Origin: Liolophura sinensis
Lineage: Eukaryota > Mollusca > Polyplacophora > Chitonida > Chitonidae
DNA: 64,000 nucleotides
Direction: 5' to 3'
Assembly (NCBI RefSeq): GCF_032854445.1
Contig: NC_088305.1
Span: 20,029,606 to 20,093,605 of the forward strand
Both the position numbers and the translations under genes were made by a program. The notes beneath the pieces were generated by a model that saw only the letters and a program-made list of their open reading frames with translations, searched no databases and was not told the origin of the DNA. Of the stretch, positions 1 through 30,980 are shown piece by piece; the first letter of the stretch is position 1; every line of letters starts with the position of its first letter.

Positions 1-243
1 TATGGGAGAATGAGTGTAAAAAGTTTGTGTGTATCAAACAAAATGAGAAAATGTTTTTCCACTAGAATCAGAATACATACATTCAATGCTGTAAAAGAGA
101 TATGCATCTGGTCTAATTGCTTGCTAAACAATGATCATCCATTCTCACCACAGCTTCAGAAAATGTCTTGACAACGTTAACATTGAAAGAAAAGAAAGGA
201 GAAAAAAGCAGACACCAGACTATGCCCTAAATGACCCCAAATC

Positions 244-270
244 GCCCCCCCCCCCCCCCCCGCCCCTCCA
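244..270. repeat. Poly-C/G-interrupted homopolymer tract
   Basis: A run of cytosines broken by a single G, followed by a C-rich stretch. It is a simple low-complexity tract, and its exact length is likely unreliable in an assembly. Confidence 0.9.
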
Positions 271-334
271 ACAATGCTGTTTAGTAGTTATAACATTAAA
301 AGTCATTACAGTTCATGATTTGAAAGTAATGGAA

Positions 335-581
335 TGACCCAGGAGCCTCTCACCTACGCAATTGCTGTGTGTTCAAGTCCGGCTCATGCTGGACTCCTCT
401 CTGGCGGTATGTAGGAAAGTCTGCCAGCAACCTGTGGATACGCGAGGGTTTCCCCCGGGTTCTGTTTGGTTTCCTCTCACCGTAATGCTGGCCGCCATCA
501 TATAAGTGAAATATTCTTGAGTACGACGTAACACACAAATTAAATACAACCAATTAAATAAATAAATAAATAAATAAATAA
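335..581 (+). mobile_element. SINE family A copy, 5'-truncated, with perfect target-site duplication
   Basis: This copy has the family A layout on the plus strand: part of a tRNA-like head with a B-box-like GTTCAAGTCC, a core containing GTGAAATATTCTTGAGTAC, and an AATAAATA tail. A 13-bp direct repeat, GAAAGTAATGGAA, sits at 322-334 and again at 582-594, directly outside the element. The start of the head is missing, so the copy inserted by retrotransposition with 5' truncation. The family assignment rests on comparison with the other copies in the window. Confidence 0.9.
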
Positions 582-594
582 GAAAGTAATGGAA

Positions 595-810
595 AGAGTA
601 GACTCATAATTTCTATATGAAATTCCTTAGTCTGATGGTAAATTCAGAATGACTAGTTTGTTCAGAATGCAGCTGTGGTCCTTCCCATGAGAAACGAGCT
701 TCATATCATCCCTTGAACAACACCCAGATGGGGGTACAGATATCTTGGTCCATAACTCATTATTGTTTCACCAAAGTTGATTTTCACTTCAACACAAACA
801 CACACCGGTA
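595..810. other. Non-coding spacer, nothing recognised
   Basis: AT-rich sequence with no coding pattern or repeat that I can identify. It leads into a minisatellite. Confidence 0.5.
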
Positions 811-1275
811 CAGCATCTGACATTCGACCTCATGATTCTACAGTCCATCAGTGTACCTGACAATCAACCTCATAATCCCACAGTCCATCAATGTACCTGA
901 CAATCAACCTCATAATCCCACAGTCCAGCAGTGTACCTGACAATCAACCTCATAATCCCACAGTCCAGCAGTGTACCTGACAATCAACCTCCTGGTCTAC
1001 AGTCCAACAGTGTACTTGACAATCTATCTCATAATCGCACAGTCCATCAGTGTACTTGACAATCTACCTCATAATCCCACAGTCCATCAGTGTACCTGAC
1101 AATCAACCTCATGATCCCACAGTCCATCAGTGTACCTAACAATCAACCTCCTGGTCTACAGTCCAACAGTGTACTTGACAATCTACCTCATAATCCCACA
1201 GTCCATCAGTGTACCTGACCATCAACCTCATGATCCCACTGTCCATTGATGTAAACAAACAACCTCATGACCCTA
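811..1275. repeat. Minisatellite, unit about 40 bp
   Basis: About eleven imperfect copies of a 40-bp unit built on ACAGTCCATCAGTGTACCTG followed by ACAATCAACCTCATAATCCC. Some units carry CTGGTCTACAGTCC instead. The array lies downstream of the M-Ras stop codon relative to that gene's direction, close to another array at 1448-1765. Confidence 0.9.
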
Positions 1276-1447
1276 GAGGCAATCAGGTTTTCTAGGAACA
1301 CCTATGATACCTGCTGACAAAGCTTTAACTGTCATCTTTGAACTGCAACACAACAACAGAGACACTATTGCCATATAAAAACAATATCCCAAAATAGACA
1401 CCATGTCACTACAGAGACACAAAATGGACACATGGCTGCCTTGTAAC

Positions 1448-1765
1448 AACATGAAAACCACATCGCAACAAGAAACCCTCCATGCAACATGAAAACCTCA
1501 TTGCAACATGAATCCACAATGCAACATGAAAACCACAATGCAATATAAAGATCACATTGCAACATGGAGACTACACTGTAACACAGAGACCACAATGCAA
1601 AGTGAAAACCACACTGCAACATGAAAACCACAATGCAACATGAAAACCACACTGTGACATGAAAACCACACTGCAGCATGGAGATCACAATGCAACATGA
1701 AAACCACACTGTGACATGAAAACCACACTGCAGCATGGAGATCACAATGCAACATGAAAACCAAA
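1448..1765. repeat. Minisatellite, unit about 19 bp with higher-order structure
   Basis: Repeats of ACATGAAAACCACAATGCA and variants with CACTGTG or CACTGCAGCATGGAGATC. The variants are arranged in a longer block that occurs twice between about 1635 and 1755. The minus strand is open for more than 100 codons only because the unit lacks stops; the translation is a monotonous repeat and I do not call it a gene. Confidence 0.85.
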
Positions 1766-2196
1766 TTACAGTACAGGCACCAAGTCACCATATACACCTC
1801 ATACATGTATGTATAAGTACAGTGAACATGTGAACTGCTGAGTGTATACACTACAGGTGAGTACGCAAAAATACAGTCTGATGACAGTGGACAATATGTA
1901 CATGGCAGACAACAGTTGTCACCTTCAAGTCTGGTCACCTCATGAATCGGGATCAGCATGGCACATGGCTGCACGCTGTGTAAATGACACATATTACCCA
2001 ACATGACAAGAACTTGCCAAATCGACCAATGAAAAGGCTGCCAACATGGCATGGGGTGCCAAATTGACACATGGTACCGGAATTGACAATGGAATGTCAA
2101 ACTGATAAAAAGTGACACCTTAAAGCAGTGAGAGCGTGAACATTGGAATATTGCTGATGAGAGCAAACAAGGTGAACTCCCCACCCCCCCACCCCC
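1766..2196. other. Probable 3' flank of M-Ras
   Basis: This stretch follows the M-Ras stop codon at 2197-2199 on the minus strand and should contain its 3' UTR. I did not find a clear AATAAA poly(A) signal on the minus strand here, so the transcript end is unknown. A C-rich tract lies at about 2178-2196. Confidence 0.4.
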
Positions 2197-2272
2197 TCAG
2201 AGAATGTGACAGCGCCAGTCTCGCTTGCCCCTGCGTCGCCGGCGTCTTTCCTTTAAATCTACAGGCTGCTCT
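2197..2272 (-). CDS. MRAS: M-Ras coding exon 5 with CAAX box
   Basis: The acceptor GTTTTTTGCAG ends at 2273, and the exon completes the split arginine codon. It encodes a short tail with six consecutive arginines, then [10 protein letters not shown] and a stop at 2199-2197. The basic run and the CHIL box form a membrane-anchor signal; a terminal leucine usually favours geranylgeranylation (family knowledge). A second AG at about 2262 would put the exon in the wrong frame, which supports the upstream acceptor. Confidence 0.9.
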
Positions 2273-5200
2273 CTGCAAAAAACACAACGTATAAAAATGT
2301 ATTGCATTTCAAAAATGAAATTGTTTTTCAAAATAATAAGCACACAAATAATATATTTATTTATTTCATGTGACTGGCCTTTACAGCCATACCCAAGAAT
2401 TTTTCACTTCTCCGATGGTGGTCAGTTATATATGTGGGGAACCTCTGGCAAGGCACTGAGTGAGTGAGTGTGTGCTTCGGGTTTAATGTCGTACTCAACA
2501 ATCTTCATCTGCTGATGAAGTAATAATTAGGGTGTATGTAATGTGCCTCCTTGTTGCAACCGGACTTCCACCACTCCTTTATCTAGTGCTGCTTCACTGA
2601 GACGACTAACCAAAGGCAAGTAAGCCGCCCCGCCCGAGCCATGATACTGATACGGGTCAACCAGTCGTTGCACTATCCCCGTCATGCTGAGCGCCAAGCA
2701 AGGAAGTCACAACTTCCGCTATTAAAATCTTAGGTGTGACTCAACCCAGGATTGATCCCGAAGTGGACGCTCTACCAACTGCGCTAGCTGGGCCGGTCGC
2801 AAGGCATTGACAAACTTATACTGCTGAAGTTACTTTCACAACTCGCCACTACGTGTAACACTTTCCTTTCCATCTGAGGACCTGGCTGACCTGGGCTGGA
2901 TGCATGTTTTCAGCAGATCAAATTTGTTTACCTGTTTTCCAAAGTCCTTATTAGTTGTCTTGTTTATTTTTTCGCATGACTTTAACGCCGCTTGTGTCTA
3001 GGAATTTGACTGACATTTGGGATGAACTTCTGTGAGAACCACCCTAGTTTATAATGACGTCGGCCAAGGTCGAGTGTTATGACGGGAGTTGGATAAGACT
3101 GTGTGTGTGTGACTTTGAACTCATTGACAATCAACGCTGTATGTCTTAGGAAAATCCAGTATAATAGAACAGTTAATAATTACCCTAAAAGACTGGACAT
3201 TTCACCCACAAAATATGGCTCTAATCACATGATCCGAGACTGATTGATTGACGTCTATTGTTGACAGATTAAGAGGACGTGCAGGGTTTAGTTCTATGAG
3301 GGACCTTACCTTATAACTCTGACCACTTCCTGGAAGGCTGCATCAACGTTTAGAGGCGGGTCTTTTGCACTGGTTTCAATATAGGGAATCTAAAAGATAA
3401 CAACCACGTACATCAGCAAGGACTGATGGACTGATTGACCGACCGATTGTCGTTCAATGCCGTATTCGAGAATTTCTCACTTATACGATGGCAGTTGATT
3501 TTATGGTTAGAGGAAACCAAAGTGCCCTGACGAAACCAAAGTGCCCAGAGCAAACTAAAGTCTCCAAAGGAAACCAAAGTGCTCACAGGAAAAGTCCAAC
3601 CTGAACAAAGTCAACGAAATGAAAATAACATTTCCACGTCTGACACACAGAGTTGTATATCATACTGGTGGAAGATTTTTATTTTTTTTTTTATTTTTAA
3701 GACTGCTTTATTTTCACCAATGCCCCTACAGCAAGACTTGAAGAATTTAACAATCAGTTAGTGTGATATTTATTTCGATTGATGTTCAACATTATACTAC
3801 GGAATTCTTCCTTTATATGACTGCAGTCAGTTTTTTCATTGGTTGAGGAAACCAGAGTGAAGCCACCGGCCAAGATTATGCCAAGTTCCCCAGATTTACA
3901 TGCGGACTTACCTTTAATGATGTACTGAGTTCTTTCCCCTGATCTTCTGAAACTTTCCTCTGGTGAACCAGGTCCACTTTGTTAGCTACCAGAATCATGG
4001 GGTAGGAATCTCTGTAAAACCAAAAAAGCCCACATGATTATACCAAGAAACAATATCTGCCTCAGCATATATTTATTATTATTATTTATTTATTTGGTAT
4101 TTTACACCGCTCCCAAGAATATTTCACTTAAACCATGGCAGCTAACATTAAGGTGGTAAGAAACCAAGACACAGTGCAGTGGAAACCCATGTCCATCTAC
4201 ACATTGCGGACAGACCTTTTGATGTATAACTTTTGAGGAAGTCAGCCTAAGCAGGACTTGATCTCATGGTGACAACACTGGTGAGAGAGACTTTAGACTC
4301 TACACTACACTACATTGTAACACATAAACACTTGGCCACATTTATCAGTTAGGCCATCACTAAGATTACGTGAGTTGACCAACATGTTAACCGGACTCTT
4401 CAAAAAAAAAAAAAAAAAAAGAGACTCACACTAAACCTTTCAATGGGATTTTGATAGACCTTTTTTTTTCAACATGGTTCTTCTTCATGACAAAGTGCAT
4501 GTCTGGTGTATGTTTGGTGAATTTAAAGTTGGAAAAAACACGAAAATGACATAACGTTCAAACGAAAGAGTGAAAAGTATTCCTAAATGTGGTCTTCAAT
4601 ATTTTTTCCGATTTTTCCTTAAGGAGAAAAAGACACTTGAAAATAAATTTTGTATGGTGGGTATTTGGGACCACCTTTCGGTATTTATAGTCTTTGTTTA
4701 ATAATGTCATAAATGAGGAAGTAACAAAGGTTTAATAAATATTTTTGCACTATAATTTGTTCTTCTCAGGTAACAAATGTATTATGCCTCAATTTGGATC
4801 ATATTTACATTTTTAATATGTTCATAAATATTATCATAATTTAGGTTAAATGCATATGTTTCCATATAAACAACAAATTTACATTCAAATAAATTTATTA
4901 GACAAGCATCACATCCTTATTTAGAACAATATTATGCAGCAACGATAAATACCAAAAGTTATATTTTTATATACCCTTTTCTCTTGAAAAAAAAATCCAA
5001 AAAAATATTAAAGATCATATTTGCAAAAAAGGTTTGTTGCTCTTTCATCTGATTTTGGCATCATTTTTATGTTTTCTTCTCCTTAAAGGTTAACCATGAC
5101 TGGTAGCTAATTTGACCACAGCTGATCTGTAGTGGCGAGTGTAGTGGAGGGCACTCTGAAATGCTAACATGGCTTATACTATTACCAATAGGCCAATGTC

Positions 5201-6535
5201 AGCCAAGAGGTGAAAGAGGCACATCCGTGGATTGATACATTTACAATGTGCAGCGTTCATGAAGCACTCCTTGTTCGTACCTGTCTTTGACACGCAGGAT
5301 TTGTGTGTGGAAATTATGAATATTCTCATAGCTCTGTTTGTCCGTCACAGAATACACTAAAAGAAACCCGTCTCCTTTCCTCATGTACTGCTCCCTCATG
5401 GCACTGAACTCCTCTTGACCCGCTGTGTCCAACACTGTAACAAGTACACCAAACTCAGCTACCCTAATTCCTTGACCTTTTTGCATGTGAAAGAACAACA
5501 TTCAATACAATTTATGCACATCTTTAATTTGATTTTGAAGACAAAACTACCTTGGATGGATTGGCCATTTTCAGGGCTTCACAAAAAGTATAGTTTTATT
5601 AGTCAACACAGAAAAATGCCTTCAGAATATGCTTGACTAAACGCCTTGCAAATGTGCGAAAAAGGTTGAAGAATTACAGTACATCGCCTATTAACTGCAA
5701 ATATAAACTGAAAATTTATACTGCAAGTATCAGACTTTTAAATTAGTGTATGGGTGCTGATACGCACTTTCGATTTAGATAGTGCACCCAATAAAGTTTA
5801 CAGCTTCGTGGAGACGCTGGTGCCCTAGATGATACTTACAAATATTTTTCCAATATGATTCCTGCAGGAGTACAGCACACATGCATGAATACACCTACAG
5901 TTTAGCTTCATGAAAGTGACACATATTCCTTGATTCTGATTGATTAATCCAACTTAAAGAGATACAGAATCGACGCTGATTGGCTGACAGTGGAGACAGG
6001 GTTTCCTGTATTAAACGCTGCAGCCTTGGTCATGACTGAATAAATGTATCATACCTAAATTATACCTTAGGCTAGGTATAGCCTGGACTTGCCTATCTCT
6101 CACACCAGCCATTCAGAATTGATTCTGTGTGAAGAGTTTAAAGATGGAAACTTTTTATATTGGAACCATTAATAGTTAATTATTCTCAGTTTCTCATAAA
6201 AAAAAAGAAATACTGAGTGTGATAATTATAAATAAATGTACATAGTGAGTATATATATAATTTTTTTTCACTTTTCTTTCATTCATGTGCTAATATGACA
6301 ATGAGTGTGTTTTGTTGATGTGGTCTAATTACAACCTATGATACTTGCCATCCAAAATACACCACTGGCCATCAATCTCATAGTGCTGGATATAAGAGTC
6401 TTCTATCGTCGGGTCATAATCCTGCACAAACATTTTCTGGAAGAACTGAATGGTGAGTGCCGATTTGCCGACACCACCATCGCCGACCACCACCAGCTTG
6501 TATGTGGTCACGTTCTCATTTGGCGGCTTGGACAT
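2197..6535 (-). CDS. MRAS: M-Ras-type small GTPase, complete, five coding exons
   Basis: This is a membrane-anchored GTP/GDP switch of the Ras family that would act at the plasma membrane in growth-factor/ERK-type signalling (family knowledge). Coding exons on the minus strand are 6535-6349, 5434-5281, 4011-3912, 3389-3310 and 2272-2197. Together they give 597 nt, a 198-residue protein against 208 in the human family member. Seen in sequence: P-loop GDGGVGKS at residues 18-25, effector loop DPTIEDSY at 41-48, DTAGQEEF at 65-72, NKVD at 124-127, ETSAK at 152-156, a run of six arginines near 183-188, and a C-terminal CHIL prenylation box. The segments EIDGQW and SVTDK and the DPPLNVD after ETSAK match M-Ras rather than R-Ras. 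All exon phases agree. Intron 1 uses a GC donor, and the other donors are GT. Upstream 5' UTR exons may exist but were not found. Confidence 0.95.
2354..2447 (-). mobile_element. SINE family A/B fragment interrupted by a family C insertion
   Basis: A TTATTTATTT tail, then CCCAAGAATTTTTCACTT and a GATGGTGGTCAG core, read as a degraded SINE on the minus strand. It stops at CCTCTGGCAAGGCA and appears to resume at 2799 with GCAAGGCATTGACAAACTT, so the family C copy between these points landed inside it. Confidence 0.65.
2448..2810 (-). mobile_element. SINE family C copy with target-site duplication
   Basis: On the minus strand the element starts with a tRNA-like head (GGCCCAGCTAGCGCAGTTGG, then GAGCGTCCACTTCGGG) and ends in CACTCACTCAC. 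It resembles copies at 25232-25595 and 38465-38772. The near-identical repeats GCAAGGCACTGA (2448-2459) and GCAAGGCATTGA (2799-2810) are its target-site duplication. It lies in intron 4 of M-Ras, in the same sense as the gene. Confidence 0.85.
3310..3389 (-). CDS. MRAS: M-Ras coding exon 4
   Basis: Acceptor CTTTTAG and donor GTAAGG bracket 80 nt that encode [19 protein letters not shown] and the start of the last helix. It contains the G5 motif SAK. It ends with two bases of an arginine codon, which sets the phase for the last exon. Confidence 0.95.
3423..3600 (-). mobile_element. Diverged SINE family B fragment with short tandem repeats
   Basis: It begins GATTGTCGTTCAATGCCGTATTC, GAATTTCTCACTTATACGATGG, the core shared with family A. 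From 3507 the phrase AACCAAAGTGCCC recurs four times with changes. It lies in intron 3 of M-Ras. Confidence 0.55.
3765..3900 (-). mobile_element. Diverged SINE family B fragment
   Basis: TTCGATTGATGTTCAACATTATAC and ATATGACTGCAGTCAGTTTT keep the family core order but with many changes, so this is an old copy. It lies against M-Ras exon 3. Confidence 0.5.
3912..4011 (-). CDS. MRAS: M-Ras coding exon 3
   Basis: Acceptor TTTTACAG and donor GTAAG bracket 100 nt that encode [17 protein letters not shown] and what follows. This includes the guanine-specificity motif NKVD. The exon is short and has no long open frame of its own, so it was recovered from phase and homology. Confidence 0.95.
4074..4260 (-). 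mobile_element. SINE family A copy, diverged
   Basis: It has a TATTTATTTATTTGG tail followed by TTTTACACCGCTCCCAAGAATATTTCACTT. It reads on the minus strand inside intron 2 of M-Ras. Confidence 0.65.
4261..5280. other. Rest of M-Ras intron 2
   Basis: AT-rich intron sequence with an A tract at about 4400-4418 and no coding pattern on either strand. The motif CTTAAGGAGAAAAAG (4618) and TTCTTCTCCTTAAAGG (5067) face each other and could be ends of an old element, but the match is short. Confidence 0.5.
5281..5434 (-). CDS. MRAS: M-Ras coding exon 2
   Basis: The exon starts after the acceptor TTGTTACAG and completes the split valine codon of [10 protein letters not shown]. It ends before GTACGAAC. 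Its 154 nt contain switch II, with Gln69 equivalent to Ras Gln61, and end in LRVKDR, with the arginine codon split across the intron. Confidence 0.95.
5435..6348. other. M-Ras intron 1
   Basis: A 914-nt intron of AT-rich sequence. I see no further exon or repeat in it. It has a GC donor on its 5' side and an AG acceptor. Confidence 0.6.
6349..6535 (-). CDS. MRAS: M-Ras coding exon 1
   Basis: Residues 1-62 plus one base. I chose the ATG at 6535-6533 because it gives a ten-residue leader before the TYKLVVVG strand, as in M-Ras. The open frame continues upstream, but through a poly-T tract at about 6600-6621 that is unlikely to be coding. The exon carries the P-loop and effector loop. It ends GGATG and is followed by GCAAGT, a GC-type donor. 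Confidence 0.93.
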
Positions 6536-8160
6536 GTCTCCCTCCGTGGTTCCTGCCGGATTCAGCGTTGTGGCTTTTTTACTCAGAACACCAATCACAA
6601 AAAAAAAAAAAAAAAAAAAAAATATCTGCAGACCTGAACAAGGCTGGAATACTACTACCCAACTTTTGAATGTACAGCAGATTAATTCCTTGGGTGATTC
6701 TCCACCTATCCTCCAAATAACAACATGTGTTTTCAATTTCACAAAATACGATCCAGCTGTTATTAAGTATTCACTTCAGTGTTTTTATGTGGGTAAAAAC
6801 ACAACAAGAATTGTTGGTCTTACTGCATTCTAAACCCACAACCACACATCTGGGCTTTTACATGCAACCTTGCCTTCAGCTACTCACGCTATGAGGTCTC
6901 TGGAGTGAAACTGCACCGAAATGACCTCACACCACTGCCAACTTAGTCATAGCTGGAAATAGTCACTTGACACCACATGTCTCAGCGTACGTGTGTGTGT
7001 GTGCAGCCAGCAGTTAAATTATGCGCCGTGATGCAACCTTTATTGGTCGCAGCAGTCAGAATTTGTGTAAGTACGCTGGACTCAACAACGACACAGTACA
7101 AACAATGATTTCACCATCACACTGTGTCGCAATACTTCTCGTCTCGCGATCGTCAACAACCTGCAACGCCGTGAAGCGGAAAAGAACGTGCTAATTCATC
7201 TCACACAACCAGTTTCAAAATTTCGAAATGAACTGAAGAAGAAGAAGAAGAAGAAACCCCATCCACAAACACCAAGCTTTAGCTGTACCAGTGATGCTGT
7301 AGTTCACATGTCAACTGGCAGCGGAGTCAGGAGTCTCGATTACTGATCCCTCGATGATCCCAATAGCCAGTAAACTTGTGCACCCTTTCACAATGCATAC
7401 GTTGTCTTACGTCAGCGCGTAAATACTGCAAAATATTTCACAAATCCCCGGATTTGCGCTAAATTCGTCGCGACCGCATGTGGCGAATTAGTCTGGTTTC
7501 AGACGGCAGAGATGACTATGTCGCTGATAAATAGGTTTGTTTGTATTTCAGTCAATATGGCCACCCGTTAGGCAGAGCTATTTTTAGTCCCGATGATTTC
7601 ATTGGTTCACTGCTCTCGTTGCGTTTGATTGGATGAAGTGCTTTCTATATATATATGCCGAAAGCCATGTTCTTAATATAGCTCTTTCTAATTTCGCTGC
7701 ATCAAAACAAAGTGCATGCTTAATTTGGACTTGGATTATTCATAAATAAAAGTATACACCATATGACCGCTGACCTGTTTATTCAATGCTGACCAAACAA
7801 ACATGGGAATTTCATTATGTAGCTTACATATATCTTGGAGACATCCCGGTAGAAAAGCAGGCCACACCTTAAACAAAATGTAACAATATGGGCCTATTTC
7901 TGTCATTATTTATTTACGTACTTTTTTTTTTTTACACATCTGCAGAAGTTCACACTTGTAGCCAGTTATATTTTGTTGTGGTCTTTACACTCCATTAAGG
8001 ACCCTTTGCTATGTATTTACCGACATCTGACGTAAAATCGCCGTCGGAACATTGAAAAGTGGATTCGAACCTGCAATTTCGCCAGTTGAAGGCCGAGTGG
8101 TTGCAGCAAGATGTAGCCTACACGTTATAGACGAATTTGCCAACGAGGATTACAATATGC
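6536..8160. other. Upstream region of M-Ras
   Basis: It holds a poly-A tract at about 6600-6621, a GAA microsatellite at 7230-7252 and AT-rich sequence. The M-Ras promoter and any 5' UTR exon should lie here, but I cannot place a start site. A perfect B-box-like GGTTCGAATCC on the minus strand at 8053-8063 may mark an old tRNA-derived repeat. Confidence 0.4.
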
Positions 8161-8199: not shown

Positions 8200-8967
8200 C
8201 CAAAGCCTGAAAGGTAAGTAAAACATTCAACACATATGATATTTACAAATTTACGCTCATGCTAACGTTTTACTTTTAATACTGATAAAAAGAGATTAAC
8301 ACCAGAATTGACACAAACAAACATGTCATTTTGCTTTATGCGGTCCACTTTCTCGGATTGTTGTTTCACTCAATTAACTTTTCCTTATAACATTCAACAC
8401 AGTATTTACACAGTAACACTATTTGCGACATGATTCCCAATTTTATAATAAAAAGTTGTACAAAATGGTACAAAGTTGTACTTTTTATAATGTTTAGTAA
8501 ATTTCAAGTTACTACATTTATATTTATGTTTACTGACATGCCAAGAAAAACGTATAGGTCTGAAAGTTCGCATCAAAAGGTACCAAACATTTTGTTTTAA
8601 CATCTTTAACAACTGAAAGAGCTTTTTTTACATCTTTAGATTTTGAATCTCAGTTTGAAAAAATTTAGGCGCTTAATATAATATGCTATACATAGGATAA
8701 AATTGAATGGCCATATATATAGAACAAGCTTGCCCGTTTTTGTTTGAAACATAAATTTATGGAAAATCTCTTTTTACTCTAGCCTTTTTCCTCTTTTTAT
8801 TACAAATATCAGATAATCTAAAGAAAAAAACAACATTGTAGCCGCCTGTGTATAATCTATCACCAGAACACTATAAATAATCCAATACAGCTAGACAAAC
8901 TAATGACCAATCTCTTATAATTCCCCTCTCCCTCCAAACAAAAACCTGTACCATGGAATAGAGCACA

Positions 8968-10710
8968 TCCAGACAGAACAACATTAATCCTGAGCCTATA
9001 TCATCCAGACAAAACCAATCACACCTAGACCGAACTGCATTAATCTTGAGTCTGACCATGTCATCTTAACAAAACCGACCACACACAGACAGAACAATAC
9101 TAATCCTTAGCCTATTTCATCCAGACAAAACCCACCACACCCTACATCAATCCTGAGCCAATGTAATCCACACAAAACCCCTTCATTGCCACCCAGACAA
9201 AACAATATTAATCCTTTTACACATGCCTTCCAGACTAACCCCACAACACCCACACAGGACATTAATCCTTTTACCCATGTCATCCAGACAAACCCACAAC
9301 ACCCACACAGAACAATATTAATCCTGAGCCCATGTCATCCACACAAAACCCACAACACCCACACAGAACAATATTAATCCTGAGCCCATGTCATCCAGAC
9401 AAAACCCACAACACCCACACAGAACATTAACCCTGAGCCCAAGTCATCCACACAAAACCCACCACACCCACACAGAACATCAATTCTTTTGCCCATGTCA
9501 TCCACACAAAACCCACCACACCCACACAGAACATCAATCCTTTTGCCCATGTCATCCACACAAAACCCACCACACCCACACAGAACAACATTAATCCTTA
9601 GCCCATGTCATCCACACAAAACCCACCACACCCACACAGAACACCATTAATCCTGAGCCCATGTCATTCACACAAAACCCACCACACCCACACAGAACAT
9701 TAATCTTGCGCCCAGGTCATCCAGATAAAACCCACCACACCCACACAGAACAACATTAATCCTGAGCCCATGTCATCCAGACAAAACCCACCATACCCAC
9801 ACAGAACAACATTAATCCTGAGCCCATGTCATTCAGACAAAACCCACCACACTCACACAGAACAACATTAATCTTGAGCCCATGTCATCCAGACAAAACC
9901 CACCACACCCACATAGAACAACATTAATCCTGAGCCTATGTCATCCACACAAAACCCACCACACACACAGAACAATATTAATCCTTTTGCCCATGTCATC
10001 CACACAAAACCCACCACACCCACACAGAACATTAATCCTGAGCCCATGTCATCCACACAAAACCCACCACACCCGCACAGAACATCAATCCTTTTGCCCA
10101 TGTCATCTAGACAAAACCCACCACATCCACACAGCACAACATTAATCCTTAGCCCATGTCATCCACACAAAACCCACCACACCCACACAGAACAACATTA
10201 ATCTTGAGCCCATGTCATCCACACAAAACCCACCACACCCACACAGGACAACATTAATCCTGAGCCCATGTCATCCAGACAAAACCCACCACACCCACAC
10301 AGAACAACATTAATCTTGAGCCCATGTCATCCACACAAAACCCACAACACCCACACAGAACAACATTAATCCTGAACCCATGTCATCCAGACAAAACCCA
10401 CCACACCCACACAGCACAACATTAATCCTTAGCCCATGTCATCCACACAAAACCCACCACACCCACACAGAACAACATTAATCTTGAGCCCATGTCATCC
10501 ACACAAAACCCACCACACCCACACAGAACAACATTAATCTTGAGCCCATGTCATCCAGACAAAACCCACCACACCCACACAGAACAACATTAATCTTGAG
10601 CCCAGGTCATCCACACAAAACCCACCACACCCACACAGAACAACATTAATCCTGTGCCTATGTCATCCTGACAAAACCCACCACACCCACACAGAACAAC
10701 ATTAATCCTG
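8968..10710. repeat. Large minisatellite, unit about 56 bp, roughly 30 copies
   Basis: The unit reads ACAACATTAATCCTGAGCCC, ATGTCATCCACACAAAACCC, ACCACACCCACACAGA. The left edge (8968-9250) is the most diverged, and the right two thirds are the most uniform. Some units lack the ACA of ACAACATTAAT or swap CCTGAGCCC for CCTTTTGCCC, and these variants are interspersed. Open frames in the array are by-products of the repeat. It sits between M-Ras and SRD5A3, both on the minus strand. Confidence 0.95.
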
Positions 10711-12008
10711 ATGTGATGTATATATATCAAAAAATTTACTGTGAACAGCTTATCATCTAGCAACTTTCTACATGATGAAACTAAGAAAAAAGACGAGACA
10801 AGGAAATAAATAAAAGCAGGAAATTCAGTTTTGTAAAGAAAACTTTTATTTATGTATTTTTAAGCTATACATACAAACATATGTGAGGACGCAAATGGTA
10901 ATAATATTTCTACTCTAACCTAATGCATTAAGCTAAGAAAATAAGTTTTATAAACAACTCCTTTTTTTTAATCCACAAAAAAAAATCATGAAAAAATGTC
11001 ACCAAACAAGTGTCACGTTCATAAAACTTTTGAAGTCAATGTTTCGTAACTTAGCATAGCATAAAGTGGCCACTGAATACTCAGAAAGCGTGTAATTAAG
11101 GCCCGTTATGTATACCCTTTACAGTCCTATGACACAGTAACGAGGCACAGAATCTGTGACCTACAAAAATTCGTCACCTGAGGAAAGTCTCCATGTATGA
11201 ATATATGGATACAATTATTCACAAACCAGTTTTGAACATCAAAAAACTTTTAAGATACAATACATACATAAATGTATACTTAGGTTTGATTACACACAAT
11301 GGAATAATATTTGAATACTGGAAATGACCTAACATTTTGTCCAGAAAGCGGTGCTTTTTTACAGGCACACACAAAACATTACACCAGTATTTTTGGAGCT
11401 GAAATATGTTTCCAGTTGTACAACATCCTACAGGTAGCTTCCAAGCAAAACACCTTTATCACATCAACAGAACCCTCAAAATTAAAACCCTCAAATTTCA
11501 GGCCATTTACCATATTTGTACAGCTGCCTGTTCTTCAGCTTGAATATTTATATATACTGGTATTTGTTTGTTGCTCATTGCCCTGGCCAAGAGTTTTCCA
11601 CTTCTACCATGGCAGCCAGTTTTAATGAGGACACAGGAGTGCATGAAGTAATTAAACAACCATCATTTGGCGAGTTATTGATGATCTTTCCGACATACTT
11701 ACTTAATTTATCTAACTGGAATAAAACAAAACCCCTTGAGGTTTTCATCCCACCAGATATTACTTCATATATTTCATTATTGCCTTGCAAACTTATGTTT
11801 CATGCGTGACACCTTTATTTATTGTATTATTTTATTCGTTAATATAAAGTGGATTAATCAAATCAGACAAAATCGAATCATGTGATATATGCCATATCGG
11901 TGGGAGGCAAAGGGGAAACAAGCATTCTTCATGTATGGAGCACACAGGAGAGCCTCGTCAACTGCTTCCTGACTGACATGAGCAGTATTTCATCCTGACA
12001 GAAAAGTT
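10711..12008. other. Non-coding stretch with one SINE remnant
   Basis: AT-rich sequence. At 11575-11640 the words CAAGAGTTTTCCACTTCTAC and ATGGCAGCCAGTTTTA are a worn piece of the SINE core on the minus strand. No coding pattern stands out. Confidence 0.45.
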
Positions 12009-12535: not shown

Positions 12536-13295
12536 ATTCAGTCTGACCATGAGCTGTCCAATGAAACATGCCATCAATATATGATATTTGGGTACAAACT
12601 TATATTTTTTATTACATATATATATATAATGATGAAATTTGGCAACAAGTACAATTTCTTATACTGCTGGTCTTCATAGGCCCAGGGAAAACTAATTGCA
12701 TGCAGGACTAAAAATCAGCAGCGGAAATAGTGGTAGAGAAATAACAGCAATCTATTTGATATGTAAATATATAAATGTATATGTTTTTGTTAGAAAACAT
12801 CAAAACAACAACATTGTAGGTACAGGTTCAAAGACTTTTCTTGTCATACTCGTTATTTTTTTTCTTGTTAAATGCACCAATTTATCCCTGATCAAATATG
12901 CTGTGATCTTGGAATTTTTGGAATGTAAGGAGTTTATTACACCTTCTGCTCCTCATGTTTTCTTACTCTTCATATATTTCACATGGTACGTGGGTGAAAC
13001 CAGGTAAGGCTACATAAAAGGGTAAAAATGGCATAAAAATAGTTTCGCTAACGTGTGAGAGTATCAAGATTAAGCCAAGATGAATTTAAGTTAAATATTT
13101 ACATATCGTAAGTATAAGTATAAGGGACAGCTTTATAGGAGGTAACCACAGGCCTTTGGTAAGATACTGAGAAACTTTTCTGAGTGTAATACAGAGATTT
13201 TCAAACTACATAGGTGGAAGAAATGTCTTAGAAATGTGGTCTTCGAAATGTGACCGCTACACCAGCTTTAACCCTACATCTTTCATTTTCACCAT

Positions 13296-13455
13296 CAACC
13301 AATCAGTGATGGTCCTGTTTGCCTACACTCAAATCAACCAATCAGTGATGGTCCTGTTTGCCTATACTCAAATCAACCAATCAGTGATGGTCCTGTTTGT
13401 CTACACTCAAATCAACCAATCAATGATGGTCCTATTTGCCTACGCTCAAATCAAT
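13296..13455. repeat. Short minisatellite, unit 39 bp, about four copies
   Basis: Repeats of CAACCAATCAGTGATGGTCC, TGTTTGCCTACACTCAAAT. The unit length is a multiple of three, so the plus strand stays open, but the peptide is just the repeat. It contains CCAAT-like words; any regulatory role is speculative. Confidence 0.9.
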
Positions 13456-13545: not shown

Positions 13546-13805
13546 TTAAAGCAATTTTGGAAATATCGCTTTCCTCGAGCGAGGAAAGTCCTCATACTTG
13601 AGTCGGTACCACCTTCGTCTCTCCAGGGCACGCACCACATGACTGATGGTGACGTAGCCAGTGCACACCCACCAGCTGCCATGCTGGGGGCCCAGGGTGA
13701 CACCTATAGCCACATGGGAGAGCACTGTCATCAGGTACCCCGGGCAGGCCACAGTGTCATACCATCCTCCCTTAGGCAGCTTGTGGTCCACAGTTACTAT
13801 GTGAC
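13546..13805 (-). CDS. SRD5A3: SRD5A3 coding exon 5
   Basis: Acceptor CTATCCTCAG and stop TAA at 13548-13546. It encodes 85 residues with GGWYDTVACPGYL and the C-terminal DFPRSRKAIFPKLL. This is the conserved catalytic C-terminal part of the family. Confidence 0.95.
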
Positions 13806-16800
13806 CTGAGGATAGATTCACATAACACTCAGTATTTAAAAGAATAAAGAAAAAAAAAATACCTGATTTGGAGTCGAAGCCTGCAATTCTCAAACTCTTC
13901 AGGTAAAAATGAACTGGATGGACACACATGACTCAGTCAACTTGATCTACGTGTATTACACAAACGATCAACTAAACACTGGTGCTAAACACACTGGATC
14001 AACTAAACACAAACGATCAACTAAACGCAGTAGGATTGTTGCTGAGAAAATCTGGGTGGTACTTAAACATGTTTTTTTTTTTTTCAGGTCAGAATTTGAT
14101 GGTATGTTGTGTCCAACAAATCTCAACAAATCTTCTATAATTTCATAGAATTTTTCACCCACTAATCACCCTTCTGTATTAAATTATGTGATTAACATTA
14201 AATCACATGGAACTTCACAGGAGGTTTCACCAGCTAATCATGCACCTTCTGTAATACATTTCACACAAAGTGGGGACAATAGAGGAGTTTCGAGTTGGAA
14301 TTCTTTTGTCGTTAAAGGTAAAAACAATCTAACTGTATCATATGATTTGTTAAAAATATTACGTAACCTTTGTTGACATTTATTTACCTATCACCTGTCT
14401 CACCCTGTTGTAGAGGCACGGAACTTCTCAATTTCACAAACATTCTGCTCCCCATATTTTCTCCATCGTTCGTCAACTCTAAATTACTTTTTGTGAACCT
14501 TTTTAAGTGCCCTTATTATAGTAAATGTGATACACAATAGCTGCCTAACATTTCTGACAGGTCACATGATACAGTCAGAATTTTTCTACCTTTATTGATA
14601 AAAGAGTTCCAACTCACAAACTCCCCAATTAGCTGGTGAGGTATTCCATGAAATGACACCAGGTCATTTCATACTGTAAATGAATTAGGCATGACAAAAA
14701 ACTATTTACACCTGAAAACTGTGTGAAGTTGTCACCACTCTCAAACATGTCACCTAGCTTTCTCTCATTTGTTGCATGCTGAGATGGTGTGAAGCCATAA
14801 TCCTTCCTTTATTTGTATAGTTCAAAATCTAGTGGCGAGCACGCAAGAGTTATGTCCCCTTACCAGCTCTGTTGCGTCTGGTGTTGGAGAGGGCAGGCTG
14901 GCAGGCGTGGTCCTGATATGTCACCCAGGCAAACAAACCCACGCCAAGTAAGTGATACCATTTGAACGAAGACCAATGAAACCAAGGCTCTGCAACAAAA
15001 ACAAAAAAAAAAAAAAGAAGAAGAGACTAAAAAATTAAAGCCTATTACGCTGAGAAAGATTATACAGGGATAATCGGACAATAAATAATCCCAATGTTTA
15101 ATTTATTTATCCATTACTTGATTGTTGTCTAATGCTTTGCTCAAAGATTCTTCTCATGTATGATGACAGTCTGATTTATGGGTGGAGGAACCTGTAAAGG
15201 CAGGGATAAACCACCAACCTTTGGCAAGTTACTCATGAACTTTCATACCTAAGCTGGTGCAGCATTCCCAGTATGTTCACTGATGATGTCATTCCCATAT
15301 ATTTCCCATTTTTGATGGAAAATATGCACAAAACAGAGAGGGATTGTTAAGAAATACAAAACTTGACTCAAAATTAAAATTTTTTTTTCTCTGTTTTTTT
15401 TTTTTTTTTTTTGCTTGATCTTTTTTTTTATTTTCCTACAAACTATACTCTACAGCACTACACTATAGCACCTTTTCATGTATCCTTTAAAACACAGCCG
15501 GCTAATCATACCTGTGGTGCCATGTAAGGCAGGAGCCTGAGCAAAAAGGGTTAGGGAGACCCCAGCTGCATAGAGGTAGGGGGCTAGGAAGTCAAGAGGT
15601 CCCTGGGTGGAAGAACTGTACACGTGTACAAAGACACTCTGATCGAGCTTCTGTATGAGGTGGATGGTGAGGAGGCCACTGGCTAACACCACTGACAAAT
15701 GATCTGAAACACAACAAAAACACCACTCAAAATGGTGAGGAGGCCACTGGCTAACACCACAGACAAATGATCTGAAACACAACAAAAACACCACTCAAAA
15801 TGGTGAGGAGGCCACTGGCTAACACCACTGACAAATGATCTGAAACACAACAAAAACACCACTCAAAATGGTGAGGAGGCCACTGGCTAACACCACAGAC
15901 AAATGATCTGAAACACAACAAAAACACCACTCAAAATGGTGAGGAGGCCACTGGCTAACACCACTGACAAATGATCTGAAACACAACAAAAACACCACTC
16001 AAAATGGCGAGGAGGCCACTGGCTAACACCACAGACAAACGATCTGAAACACAACAAAAACACCACTCAAAATGGCGAGGAGGCCACTGGCTAACACCAC
16101 AGACTAATGATCTGAAACACAACAACACCACTCAAAATGGTGAGGAGGCAACTGGCTAACTATACAGACAAATGATATGAAACACAACAAAACTACCACA
16201 CACAAGGTGAGGAGACCACTGGCTAACACCACAGACAAATGATCTGAAACACAACAAAAACACCACTCAAAATGGTGAGGAGGCCACTGGCTAACACCAC
16301 TGACAAATGATCTGAAACACAACAAAAACACCACTCAAAATGGCGAGGAGGCCACTGGCTAACACCACAGACAAACGATCTGAAACACAACAAAAACACC
16401 ACTCAAAATGGCGAGGAGGCCACTGGCTAACACCACAGACTAATGATCTGAAACACAACAACACCACTCAAAATGGTGAGGAGGCAACTGGCTAACTATA
16501 CAGACAAATGATATGAAACACAACAAAACTACCACACACAAGGTGAGGAGACCACTGGCTAACACCACAGACAAATGATCTTAAACACAACAAAAACACC
16601 ACTCAAAATGGCGAAGAGGTCACTGGCTAACACCACAGACAAATGATCTGAAACACTCAAAATGGCGAGGAGGCCACTGGCTTACACCACAGACAAATGA
16701 TCTGACACACAACAAAAACACCACTCAAAATGGTGAGGAGGCCACTGGCTAACACCACAGACTAATGATCTGAAACACAACAGCAACACCACTCAAAATG

Positions 16801-19557
16801 GTGAGGAGGCCACTGGCTAACACCACAGACTAATGATCTGAAACACAACAACACCACTCAAAATGGTGAGGAGGCAACTGGCTAACTATACAGACAAATG
16901 ATATGAAACACAACAAAACTACCACACACAAGGTGAGGAGACCACTGGCTAACACCACAGACAAATGATCTTAAACACAACAAAAACACCACTCAAAATG
17001 GCGAGGAGGTCACTGGCTAACACCACAGACAAATGATCTGAAACACTCAAAATGGCGAGGAGGCCACTGGCTTACACCACAGACAAATGATCTGAAACAC
17101 AACAAAATTACCACACACAAGGTAAGGAGGCCACTAGCCAACACCACAGACAAACGATCTGAAACACAACAAAACCACCACTCAAAATGGCGAGGAGGCC
17201 ACTGGCTAACACCACAGACAAATGATCTGAAACACTCAAAATGGCGAGGAGGCCACTGGATTACACCACAGACAAATGATCTGAAACACAACAAAATTGG
17301 CAACTATATAATGGATGGATGGTTTATTTTTTGAACCACAACAGGATTTGAACTCTGCAGCCAAAGTCCAGCACCCTTTAACAACTGAGCCATCAAAGGA
17401 AAATTCCCTTTAGCTACTAGGCAATGCAAAGCTGCTCCCACTACAGTCGTCCCCACTCAAAACCTTTTTTTTTCCTGATGTTCACCAGAAGGGAGAAATT
17501 TTTAAGAACATTATTTCAGTTATCTTTTACTCATCTGTCAAAAAATGTTGAGTTGAAAAAACTTCCTGTGACATCACAGTTTCTATTCTCTAAAAACTAC
17601 TGTGTACTAGCGATACACCGTTCTGTGGCAAAAATGCACGTCCACATTATTTTGTGTACCAGCAGTACACAAATTGTGTAATTCATGTGCCACATCCACA
17701 GTGACATGTGTATATATTTGTGTACAGCTGATGCACATGTCACGGTGGATGTACACCTTTGTAAACAATCGTTTTTAGAGAGTAAACTCCGATAATATGG
17801 TTCATAAAGGCCACAATTCAAATGTTTGAACACATATAACTCTCTTCACAAAAATTTTTAAAAATAAATCAAAGTATATTTATGCATAGTTTTAAGTAGT
17901 CTATTAGGTAATGCCTACTTGGATCTTTAGATGTCTTTTTTTGTATGTAAATAAACATTTATTTCAAGCATCAGTCTCAAAAACAAAACAAGGGGAACAA
18001 CTCAATCATGCCAATTCCAGTTTAAAGAAACTTCTACCGCTTAAGACTCAAAACATGTTAAGTACGTTTTTTATATACTGTAGAGAAAAAAATCACAGTT
18101 ATTTGTATTTATTTGCGAGCTACATTACCCATTCTTTTCCCCAAGATGTGAAAATGTTGAGATCTGAAGTTTGATTTTAATACGTAATAATTATTACCTT
18201 TGTGAAGGAGATCATGTTTTTATCTGCGTTTATTACCTATTACATTTTGATGATAATCTGGATCGGCACCCGCACCCAAAAATTTTTAAACGATCCTTCA
18301 TCAGACAGATCAGACATTAATGCGGATTATTATCTGCTTGTCTGGAGTGGACAAATTTCTATATTTCTTCATATAACAACTCAGTGTTCAATTCCACCAG
18401 TGCATAAACCATGAGTTTTCTATACGTGTGGATATTTACCTTCTGGTTGTGCGTCTGCCAGAGAGACACTGTCCACAGCAGCGGACACCCATCCATAGGC
18501 CGGCACCCCACTGACGTACGCCCTAAGTGCAGAGTATACCAGGACTAGGTTCACACCCAGGGCTAAGAACCAGCGTTTTACAGGCCTGGGGGAGAAAAAA
18601 TTTTGTTTATTTACATCCATTTGATTGGTGTTTTATGCTGTACAGAAGAATATTTCACTTATGCTACAAGTTTTCAACAGTCAATATTATGGTAGGAAGA
18701 CACTGGGCAGCTCCTGTGGGAAACCCAGTGACAACGACTGCATCCGCAGGTTGTGGGCAGACCTTCCCACATACTACCCCAGAAGCAGGAAGCATGAGTT
18801 TCACTTAATGGAGGGCCCCGCACGGACAAAATAAGACCATAATATTATAAACATGTCCTTGAAAACATATCAACCATTTTAAAGTGCTGCATTAGGCCCT
18901 GCAAAGAATTTTTAAGAATGGCCTAAATAAACCTTACTGTATGTTAAAACTGCTGTACATTTGGCACTTCATTTCCCTCTGCTCAATAATATATTTTTTT
19001 CTTTACGTGACGTATTTCAGAATTCAGGCTAAACTAAGGTGGTCAAGATGATGTGAGCTGGGGCAGGGTGGGGGTCATTGCAGAAAGAAGGATTCAGCAT
19101 TCTATAATCTAGGTCTGAAAAGCTCCCTGTTAGCTTAACTGTCCCTAAGAGCAAACTTGTCAATAACTGAGCTTCAATTTGTGTAGTTATTTACATGTTA
19201 ATACTTGGTTTATCGGCATTAAAATCCTGCTTTAAAATCCTCATATCCCAGATTAAATTGATTTTACTGTGACGGGCTGACATGGTTACACATTAGGTAG
19301 CTATAGCCCTACTACCTGGTGCATTTTGGGCCTACACATGTACAACTTCTGAGGTGTAAGTTACTAGCTATCTATGAGTAGATATACCGTTTAGCAAATC
19401 GCAGCAGGCCAGTTTGTCCGCTGAAATCCCGACCAGAAACTGTTCCCTTGTCCGCAACTCCGTCGTAGAGACCAGCTAGAAAGTAGGCACCTGACAATGA
19501 CGCCCAGAACACCTCTATGCCGGGCAGAGGGACGCCAAACGCTTCACGGGCCGCCAT
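13546..19557 (-). CDS. SRD5A3: Polyprenol reductase (SRD5A3-like), complete, five coding exons
   Basis: The enzyme family reduces polyprenol to dolichol in the ER membrane, supplying the lipid carrier for N-glycosylation (family knowledge). Coding exons on the minus strand are 19557-19388, 18585-18440, 15703-15512, 14989-14864 and 13805-13546. They total 894 nt and 297 residues, against 318 in the human protein. All phases agree. Seen in sequence: several hydrophobic membrane segments, KWYHLLGVGLFAW near residue 180, NTRRNRAG at about 205-212, HKLPKGGWYD at 219-228, and the C-terminal YEDFPRSRKAIFPKLL. These match the steroid 5-alpha-reductase C-terminal domain and the SRD5A3 subgroup in order and spacing. 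The N-terminal 100 residues are weakly conserved. Intron 2 contains a splice-site minisatellite, and intron 1 has a SINE next to the exon 2 acceptor. Confidence 0.92.
13806..14863. other. SRD5A3 intron 4
   Basis: A 1058-nt intron. A short ACTAAACAC/AACGATCAACTAAACAC repeat occurs at 13965-14025. I see no exon or full mobile element. Confidence 0.6.
14864..14989 (-). CDS. SRD5A3: SRD5A3 coding exon 4
   Basis: Acceptor TTTTTGTTGCAG and donor GTAAGG bracket 126 nt that encode EPWFHWSSFKWYHLLGVGLF and on to NTRRNRA. The segment aligns with the human WFHILGMMMFIWSSAHQ region. Its tail is the conserved NLRKNKAG-like motif. Confidence 0.93.
15095..15260 (-). mobile_element. SINE family A/B fragment in SRD5A3 intron 3
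   Basis: TTATTTATCCATTACTTGATTG then TGATGACAGTCTGATTTATG and a GGAGGAACC word keep the family order, with many changes. It reads on the minus strand. Confidence 0.6.
15512..15703 (-). CDS. SRD5A3: SRD5A3 coding exon 3
   Basis: Acceptor TTGTGTTTCAG at 15704 and donor GTATGATT bracket 192 nt. It encodes HLSVVLASGLLTIHLIQKLD and the segment up to LHGTT. The first 40 nt of this exon and the last 28 nt of the intron form the unit of the adjoining minisatellite. This copy is taken as the real exon because only it continues into coding sequence in phase. Confidence 0.9.
15662..17295 (-). repeat. 68-bp minisatellite built from the SRD5A3 exon 3 splice junction
   Basis: About two dozen units of 68 bp with a few shorter ones. 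On the minus strand a unit is 40 nt identical or nearly identical to the first 40 nt of exon 3, followed by 28 nt ending TTGTTGTGTTTCAG. This is the intron's pyrimidine-rich end and its AG. The first 42 nt of the real exon 3 form the unit at the low-coordinate end, and the rest of the array lies in intron 2. Most units keep the AG; three have CATATC and so lack it, and two have TTTAAG. Higher-order blocks of several units repeat (compare 16100-16560 with 16440-16900). Confidence 0.95.
17318..17400 (-). mobile_element. tRNA-like sequence, possible SINE head
   Basis: On the minus strand TGGCTCAGTTGTTAAAGG resembles an A box and GAGTTCAAATCC a B box, about 30 nt apart. The anticodon stem does not pair well, so a functional tRNA is unlikely. 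Confidence 0.35.
17401..18439. other. 5' part of SRD5A3 intron 2
   Basis: AT-rich sequence with no exon or identifiable repeat. Words around CACATGTGTACA recur near 17630-17760 (minisatellite-like but too irregular to call). Confidence 0.5.
18440..18585 (-). CDS. SRD5A3: SRD5A3 coding exon 2
   Basis: Acceptor TTTTTTCTCCCCCAG and donor GTAAAT bracket 146 nt. It encodes RPVKRWFLALGVNLVLVYSA and what follows, with one membrane segment. Phase fits both neighbours. A SINE tail lies about 20 nt upstream of the acceptor. Confidence 0.88.
18604..18800 (-). mobile_element. SINE family A copy beside the SRD5A3 exon 2 acceptor
   Basis: The TTTGTTTATTTACATCCATT tail end is followed by TTGATTGGTGTTTTATGCTG and the family core. 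It reads in the same sense as SRD5A3. Its tail starts about 18 nt from the acceptor AG of exon 2. Confidence 0.8.
18801..19387. other. 5' part of SRD5A3 intron 1
   Basis: Intron sequence without a recognised repeat or exon. Confidence 0.5.
19388..19557 (-). CDS. SRD5A3: SRD5A3 coding exon 1
   Basis: The exon starts at the ATG of MAAREAFGVPLPG and ends AAACG before the donor GTATATC. It encodes residues 1-56 and two bases. A hydrophobic stretch (EVFWASLSGAYFLAGLY) fits a first membrane segment. The start is the first ATG of this open frame. Confidence 0.85.
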
Positions 19558-28949: not shown

Positions 28950-30980
28950 TCATGAGGTGACAATTGCTTTCACTGGGAATGGAATGAAAAGTAACGTTGC
29001 CACGAGAAGGGGTGGTGAGACATCGGATGTGTTGGATCCATCCATTGTCTGTCATTACAGAAACGGTGACTTGTCATTTCCCCGGTTATATAGACTGTTG
29101 TTACCACAAACGGTGACTTGTGTACTGAAGTTTGAAATTCTCACTGAAGTCAAAAATGGCTTTGAAGAATCGGCCCCCGAGATCTAAATGATTTATGACG
29201 AGGCCATGGTCAGCTGTTGTACCACAAGGTTATTTCATCCCAACAATAATACCGATGTTCTGTGTCGTGGGAGTGACGCCATATGGGTTGTATGGGTTAC
29301 CACAGCTGCGCCCCAGACCTTTCTCCAGTGCATTTTACGTGTATTGTAAACTTGAACTCGCACCTACAAGCACCCCCCACCCCGTCCCCACCACCAACCT
29401 CTCCCTCACCTTTGCTATATATGTATACTATCATGTTATCGACCATTGAGCTGTAGAATCAATAATTTTAATATGAGGCTTAGCAGGATGTGTTTTGACT
29501 GTCCAGCGCTGGTCATTTTGTTTCCAACCTTATGTATATCTTCGAAGAACCAAAGATGTCATTTAATGAAGATGAGTTTCGAACTTCTGTGACACCATAC
29601 TCCCATTACCGAGACGTTTAACTTGAAATCAGACATTTGATGATTTTTGTCCGTGTCTGAAAACGGTGATTGGCTTACACATTTCGATTTGCAGAAACGG
29701 CGACTTCATATCTTCAACTTGGAGAATGTTCTTTCTTGAAACTGGCCCGACGTTTGAGGCCTTCCTTTGGGCAATGGGTTTTCTAACATGATGTTTCGTC
29801 ATGTCTTCCGCAAAGAGACTGTTGTCGCTGCACTGGTTTTACTCTCTGTGACGACATTTGTTATTTTGTCCATTCCGGAAACGGTAGCTTGTTGTTGCCT
29901 CCACATATAGAGTGTCCTTTTCAGAAATGGTGACAACCTCTTGTTGTCTTTTGTAGTGTCAATAAACGTAATTCCGCTTATATAAACCTCCAGAAACACT
30001 GACATGTTATTTCTTCCGCTAGGACACTGCCTTTACCAGAAACACGACTTAACATTTCTTCCGCTTGCAGACTGCCTTTTCCAAAATCGGCGACTTGTCA
30101 TTTTCCAGGAGACGTATATTGTCTTTTCCAAAAAGGGTGACTCGAAATTCTTCCGCTGAGTACATAGCTTTTTCCAGAAACGGTGAATTGACATTTCTCC
30201 CTCTACGGACGTTGCCCTTTCCGGAAATTGTGACATGACATTTCCTCCGATAAAGACATTGTCTTTAGCCGAAACGGCATCTCGACATTCCTTCCAAAAA
30301 CGGTGAGTCATTTTCCAGGGGTGCGGCTTGTCATTTCTTCCGAGACGTATATTGGCTTTTTCACAAACTCTGACTTGAAATTTCTTCCGCCAAGCACATA
30401 TCTTTTCCAGAAAAGGTGACCTGACATTTCGTCCGCTGAGGACATTGTCTTGTTCAGAAACGGTGACTTGACATTCCTTTTCCTATGGACATTGCATTTT
30501 TGAGAAGCCATGGCTTATCATTCCTTCCGATAAGGACATTTGCTTTTTCCCGAAACGGTGACTTGACGTTCCTTCCGATAACGACATTGCCTTTGACAGA
30601 AACAGCGACCTGACGTTTCTTCCGCTGACATTGTCTTTATCAGAAACAGTGACTTAACATTTCTTCTTCTATGGACATTGCTTTTTTCAGCAGCCATGGC
30701 TTATCATTCCTTCCGATAAGGACATTGCTTTTTCCAGAAACGGGACCTGACGTTCCTTCCGATAACGACATTGCCTTCGACAGAAACGGTGACCTGATAT
30801 CAGACTGTCATTTCTTCTGCCAGGGTATATTGCATTTTCTAAAAACATTGTTATTTATCATTTCTTCCTGTTATAAACTGCCTTTTCCACATAGAGTTAA
30901 CTGTTGCGTCGTCTTCTACGGGCACTGACTTTTCCAGAAACGATGAATTGAAATTTTTTCCTCTATAGAACATTGCTTTT
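28950..30980. repeat. Long degenerate repeat region with GAAACGGTGACTTG motif
   Basis: The phrases CCAGAAACGGTGACTTGACA, TTTCTTCCGCT and AAGGACATTGCCTTT recur dozens of times. They are dense and fairly regular from about 29990 to 30820 (spacing about 46-60 bp) and sparse before that. The block from 30480 to 30560 recurs at 30670-30750. Minus-strand frames here translate to FLEKTIYV-like repeats and are by-products. Confidence 0.75.

Follow-up and report, generated by a model that had tools for sequence, protein, structure and literature searches.

The window, by which we mean the whole stretch of 64,000 nucleotides of Liolophura sinensis DNA that was analysed, raises the question of what it means for a gene when a minisatellite multiplies one of its real splice sites, here the acceptor of exon 3 in a gene resembling SRD5A3. 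The assembly was first published under the name Liolophura japonica (PMC11068029), and the name was later corrected to L. sinensis (PMC12441733). A preliminary description had read the array as a row of decoy acceptors that must be ignored or whose use lowers the output of the gene, and had proposed that their number could tune dolichol synthesis; its anatomy, its decoy acceptors and its premature stops held, while the tuning of dolichol synthesis was not supported.

Host gene and its relatives

The gene lies on the reverse strand, and its exons are as follows.

19388 to 19557, minus strand: exon 1, from the ATG (open reading frames and splice signals)
18440 to 18585, minus strand: exon 2 (open reading frames and splice signals)
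15512 to 15703, minus strand: exon 3 (open reading frames and splice signals; PDB 7c83 alignment)
14864 to 14989, minus strand: exon 4 (open reading frames and splice signals; Pfam match)
13546 to 13805, minus strand: exon 5, with the stop codon and part of the Steroid_dh domain, PF02544 (gene model; PF02544 matches)

Joined in a gene model built from open reading frames and splice signals, the five exons encode a protein of 297 amino acids, which scores 47.4 bits against Steroid_dh (PF02544), where the curated cut-off is 22.6, and so belongs to this family, and whose residues 100 to 295 align with PDB 7c83, a structure of the 5-alpha-reductase family, at an E value of 1.6e-8. The 7c83 alignment runs without a gap over the exon 2/3 junction, in support of an exon 3 that begins at 15703; the acceptor had previously been placed at 15704, and the precise AG is 15705-15704. 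Among the matches listed, PF02544 occurs 7 times in the genome. When the C-terminal exon was compared with the C-terminus of human SRD5A3, the gene on C8 (L030) was identical at 34 of 79 positions and the window gene at 24 of 83. Judged from such sequence comparisons, the main SRD5A3 may be a gene other than that of the window, for which the SRD5A3 label is plausible but not secured. A separate 39-bp array of about 4 copies (13294-13454) starts about 90 bp beyond the stop codon of the window gene and probably belongs to the 3' UTR.

Anatomy of the array at the intron 2/exon 3 boundary

Tandem Repeats Finder (TRF) and a split of the array into its units confirmed the 68-bp array that had been reported upstream of the acceptor on the gene strand, and the following features were delimited.

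15664 to 17296, minus strand: 68-bp minisatellite with 24 decoy acceptors, the real acceptor and the first 40 nt of exon 3 (TRF, unit split)
15664 to 15703, minus strand: exon 3 from nt 1 to nt 40, at the same time the last array unit; this part is identical in decoys -2, -4 and -9 (unit split)
15704 to 15705, minus strand: AG of the true 3' splice site of exon 3, with 15703 as first exonic base (unit split; gap-free PDB 7c83 alignment over the exon 2/3 junction)
15704 to 17296, minus strand: intronic part of the array with the 24 decoys, whose first exonic-type bases run from 15771 (decoy -1) to 17280 (decoy -24) (unit split)
17297 to 17320, minus strand: intron 2 sequence adjoining the array at the end away from exon 3, probably the sequence originally upstream of the acceptor (TRF, unit split)

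Apart from the basic period of 68 bp, TRF reported higher-order periods of 136 and 336 bp for the same array. On the gene strand the array consists of 24 decoy units followed by the real exon-3 unit, the decoys being 68 bp (n = 14), 67 bp (n = 4), 65 bp (n = 3) or 54 bp (n = 3) long. A standard unit joins the 28-nt end of intron 2 (TTTGAGTGGTGTTTTTGTTGTGTTTCAG) to the first 40 nt of exon 3, as previously described; this composition holds for the typical unit and not for the three 54-bp units, in which the intron part is only 14 nt. The earlier estimate of about two dozen decoys, some 20 of them with an AG, agrees with the exact figures of 24 and 21, the remaining three decoys reading AT. Because the same variants and the same flanking units are found in all three (-18, -12 and -7), the loss of the AG was probably a single mutation that was copied along with neighbouring units; units -13 to -9 also resemble units -8 to -4, small differences aside. 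More generally, comparison of the units showed that blocks of units recur inside the array, that the unit at the intron-side edge deviates, and that the exon-side unit is identical to units -2, -4 and -9 over all 40 nt. When the 29-nt boundary sequence was searched with up to 3 mismatches in the 609-Mb assembly, 25 matches were found, every one of them within this array, and a chance origin of the array is excluded.

Decoy -2 and the true site do not differ at any position from -168 to +40, and therefore nearby sequence cannot discriminate between the two; what sets them apart is how far each lies from the exon 3 donor.

Predicted consequences of decoy use

When the frame of exon 2 was read into each of the decoys, a stop codon was encountered in 24 of 24 cases, 171 to 1749 nt before the exon 3/4 junction, in agreement with the premature stop that had been claimed for every decoy. 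A stop this far upstream of an exon junction is the classic setting for nonsense-mediated decay. With a stop in all 24 decoy choices, the array was rejected as a coding repeat.

In sequence the decoys are complete acceptors, and by analogy with other systems they are most likely ignored for the most part by the splicing machinery; appreciable use of decoys is possible, as is a modest effect of such use on gene output. The stronger version of this effect is that the decoys compete with the true acceptor, that the resulting transcripts stop early and are degraded, and that array length thereby tunes gene output. We consider this unlikely, even though the AG count and the uniform stops would suit it, as would a branch-like motif (yTnAy) found 18 to 48 nt upstream in 14 of the 25 sites, the true acceptor among them, and the report that splicing can change with tandem repeats at human exon-intron boundaries (PMC2812944).

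Boundary arrays at other exons

Arrays spanning an exon boundary were found in at least 4 of 36 kinase exons of the same genome, 2 on the acceptor side and 2 on the donor side, and in all four the copied splice sites were seen in the sequence. The exon edges used were the edges of domain matches, which may fall short of the true edge, so that 4 of 36 is a lower bound. The 36 loci, some of which may share one gene, were fetched from at least 138 kinase-domain matches listed and were picked by a short open frame or a partial domain before repeats were looked at; for 6 of the 36 the fetched flank was only 300 bp, and the by-eye reading of boundaries covered arrays less than 200 bp from a match, which places those of L037, L038, L044 and L064 outside it. 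The arrays adjoining the kinase matches in L057 and L058 were judged intronic by eye. The survey of PF02544 comprised the six matches other than exon 5 of the window gene. The arrays found at exons in the two surveys are listed below.

L041, kinase exon: acceptor array, 6 decoys, AG in 6 of 6
L040, kinase exon: acceptor array, 8 decoys, AG in 8 of 8
L047, kinase exon: donor array, 5 decoys, GT in 4 of 5
L052, kinase exon (C10:22583500-22585000): donor array, 5 decoys, GT in 5 of 5
L031, SRD5A-family gene (C14:245851-248958), minus strand: donor array of 77-bp units, 13 decoys, GT in 12 of 13
L030, SRD5A3-like gene (C8:42640209-42643457), 1722 to 2019: 31-bp array of about 9.6 copies, in which the last codons and the stop codon are repeated into the 3' flank

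At the PF02544 locus L029 no array was found at the exon, and at L032 none apart from a short run rich in A; the array lying between L034 and L035 was judged intronic by eye. Boundary arrays thus look like a habit of this genome that is not peculiar to one gene, and a regulatory array special to SRD5A3 was rejected on the grounds that unrelated exons carry the same structure, the donor side included.

The donor-side arrays in L031, L047 and L052 also bear on the idea that the array is helpful, with branch points and pyrimidine tracts jointly forming a platform that strengthens a weak acceptor. Pyrimidines make up 71% of the true acceptor from -20 to -4, and the branch-like motif of this acceptor, CTCAC at -33, belongs to exon sequence copied into the preceding unit, both of which would fit such a platform; however, arrays exist on the donor side as well and minisatellites are frequent in the sampled DNA, and we regard this explanation as very unlikely. 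Assemblers are prone to error in tandem arrays, and the HiFi coverage is just 14x. It is nevertheless highly improbable that the copies were multiplied or collapsed in assembly, since single HiFi reads, averaging 8,347 bp (PMC11068029), can span an array of 1.63 kb, the differences between units are ordered, and similar arrays lie on C3, C6, C10, C13 and C14.

Possible selection on decoys and exon edges

Over six arrays pooled, the window's included, the AG or GT is intact in 56 of 61 decoys. Mismatches affect 5 of 122 positions of the splice dinucleotides versus 199 of 1987 other positions (two-sided Fisher p 0.027; in this value and in the 56 of 61 alike, independence is overstated as the units share ancestry). 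No purge of decoys was seen among these 61, the dinucleotide being no more altered than other positions; the low mismatch of the dinucleotide is in turn not claimed as a sign of selection, because units copy one another. At positions other than the dinucleotide, the drift from the true boundary amounts to 28% for the decoys of L052, where it includes the exonic part of the decoys, and to 22% for those of L040, so that the decoys of these two loci are imperfect. In L052, 4 of the 5 decoy donors (GTAAGC) match the consensus at 8 of 9 positions versus 7 of 9 for the true donor (GTATGC).

Minisatellites, defined by a period of 10 or more, 3 or more copies and a TRF score of 150 or more, cover 15.7% (31,483 of 200,000 bp) of 20 arbitrary 10-kb stretches, two each on C1 to C10, and 3 of the 20 are without any. 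One of these stretches (L020, C6:12000001-12010000) is more than half occupied by a single 51-bp array of about 115 copies, at 5-5858. In the first 30 loci, arrays hold 4 of 60 exon ends, in comparison to a flank coverage of 9.1 to 9.4% (p 0.35 to 0.32), the higher value including 107 bp of arrays inside exons and the lower one leaving them out; no enrichment of arrays at exon boundaries was seen by this measure. Against the 15.7% of the random sample, 4 of 60 is lower (p 0.03). Exon edges are hence not favoured by arrays, and selection against boundary arrays is possible; protection is at most mild, which is allowed for because the share of exon ends is close to flank coverage and yet below that of the random sample.

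Comparison with known systems

The array belongs to a known kind, the mirages described in lancelets, and the mollusc host is new as far as we searched. What is also new is that this type of array is not special to one gene, which gives a first hint of its frequency in this host group. A different tandem repeat that multiplies a splice site is the 12-bp minisatellite of human IFI6 (6-16, G1P3), which supplies repeated donor sites, the decoy donors being really used; it differs from the chiton array in lying on the donor side and in its short unit.

Mirages were described as minisatellites over exon-intron boundaries in which many, though not all, units keep the AG or GT (PMC3087553). They are known from BflGb6 and BflGb9 of Branchiostoma and also from Adh and TnC, with imperfect similar repeats in PGBD5 (PMC3902484), the Adh mirage being credited to Canestro 2002 by both papers. 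Tandem copies spanning either end of an exon are common to the lancelet genes and the chiton ones, and so is the partial retention of the AG or GT, here 21 of 24 in the window and 56 of 61 over six arrays. The closest counterpart is BflGb6, an acceptor-side mirage whose unit consists of an intron end and an exon start as in the chiton; in contrast to the 24 extra units found here, it has 6 or 3 units depending on the haplotype (PMC3087553). Apart from the host, unit length also differs, with 150 to 160 bp in the lancelets (10 to 72 bp in Adh3) versus 68 bp in the chiton. The traits described for lancelet mirages include length polymorphism and somatic instability, as well as concerted evolution within the cluster from which the edges are excluded; in the chiton array, blocks of units recur inside and the intron-side edge unit deviates, but the exon-side unit equals three inner units over 40 nt. 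In human segmental duplications, internal tandem repeats likewise overlap exon-intron boundaries and can create new splicing patterns, but their units average 30 bp in 4 copies, they occur in recent paralogs, and transcript evidence for new introns was reported (PMC2812944). Among the titles and abstract openings of the matches listed in the open-access literature, subscription journals being outside this scope, no report of a molluscan mirage was found, and the main text of a comparative-genome paper on chitons (PMC12005716) contains neither 'tandem repeat' nor 'minisatellite'.

RT-PCR in the lancelets suggests that mirages leave regular splicing undisturbed (PMC3087553), and they are reported as harmless to splicing in PMC3902484 as well, which argues against competing decoys, as do the sharing of the structure by several unrelated exons and the unseen decoy purge. 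On the same grounds, together with the closer similarity of the C8 gene to human SRD5A3, which weakens any link with dolichol, a tuning of dolichol synthesis by the length of the array is not supported.

Proposed origin and tolerance

The account that we favour, and hold to be fairly probable, is that of a mirage-type minisatellite that was duplicated across the acceptor, grew by exchange, and is close to neutral, its decoys being mostly ignored through exon definition. This genome forms minisatellites at many places, exon edges among them, as seen in the samples. Here a short stretch reaching from the last part of intron 2 into exon 3 would have been duplicated in tandem, and exchange within the array would have added further copies on the intron side, as the observed pattern of units and blocks suggests. 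The splicing machinery would then recognise the exon as a whole and take the acceptor closest to the donor of that exon; with donor-side arrays, the same rule would select the first donor. Any rare use of a decoy would yield a transcript with a premature stop, which would presumably be degraded, leaving the array nearly neutral.

Where flanking introns are large, the closest pair of splice sites across the exon is reported to be preferred (PMC9225289), and exon definition was applied to this case because intron 2, at 2,736 nt, is long. In the acceptor arrays the true site comes last and in the donor arrays it comes first, and both positions fit the proximity rule. That exon definition governs the choice of sites in the chiton is inferred by analogy with other animals.

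Unless duplicates are built, it is difficult to study how the spliceosome chooses among identical neighbouring sites, and the chiton genome offers natural duplicates, on both sides of exons, with some decoys at least equal to the true site by consensus; L052 in particular is a natural test of proximity against strength. Public RNA-seq suits such testing, and data from five tissues (PE150, SAMN35319765 to SAMN35319769) exist for the species of this assembly (PMC11068029), as do its HiFi reads (SRX20411988). On a wider scale, we put forward tentatively, with the chances somewhat against it, that a few percent of exon edges, thousands genome-wide, carry arrays of near-perfect, uneroded decoy acceptors or donors, that these would prove, in nature and on a large scale, that the choice of splice sites in animals is set by pairing across the exon rather than by nearby sequence, and that the arrays might return variants to the coding starts of exons and be a source of raw splice sites from which new introns and exons form. 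The present results suggest that mirages are established in at least one mollusc, and they may perhaps be common wherever minisatellites are dense.

The window holds other large minisatellites, at 8964-10711 (56 bp x 31), 45401-46633 (68 bp x 18) and 29991-30797 (47 bp x 17). Open reading frames resembling, by eye, a Ras-family GTPase lie on its reverse strand at about 3879-6560.
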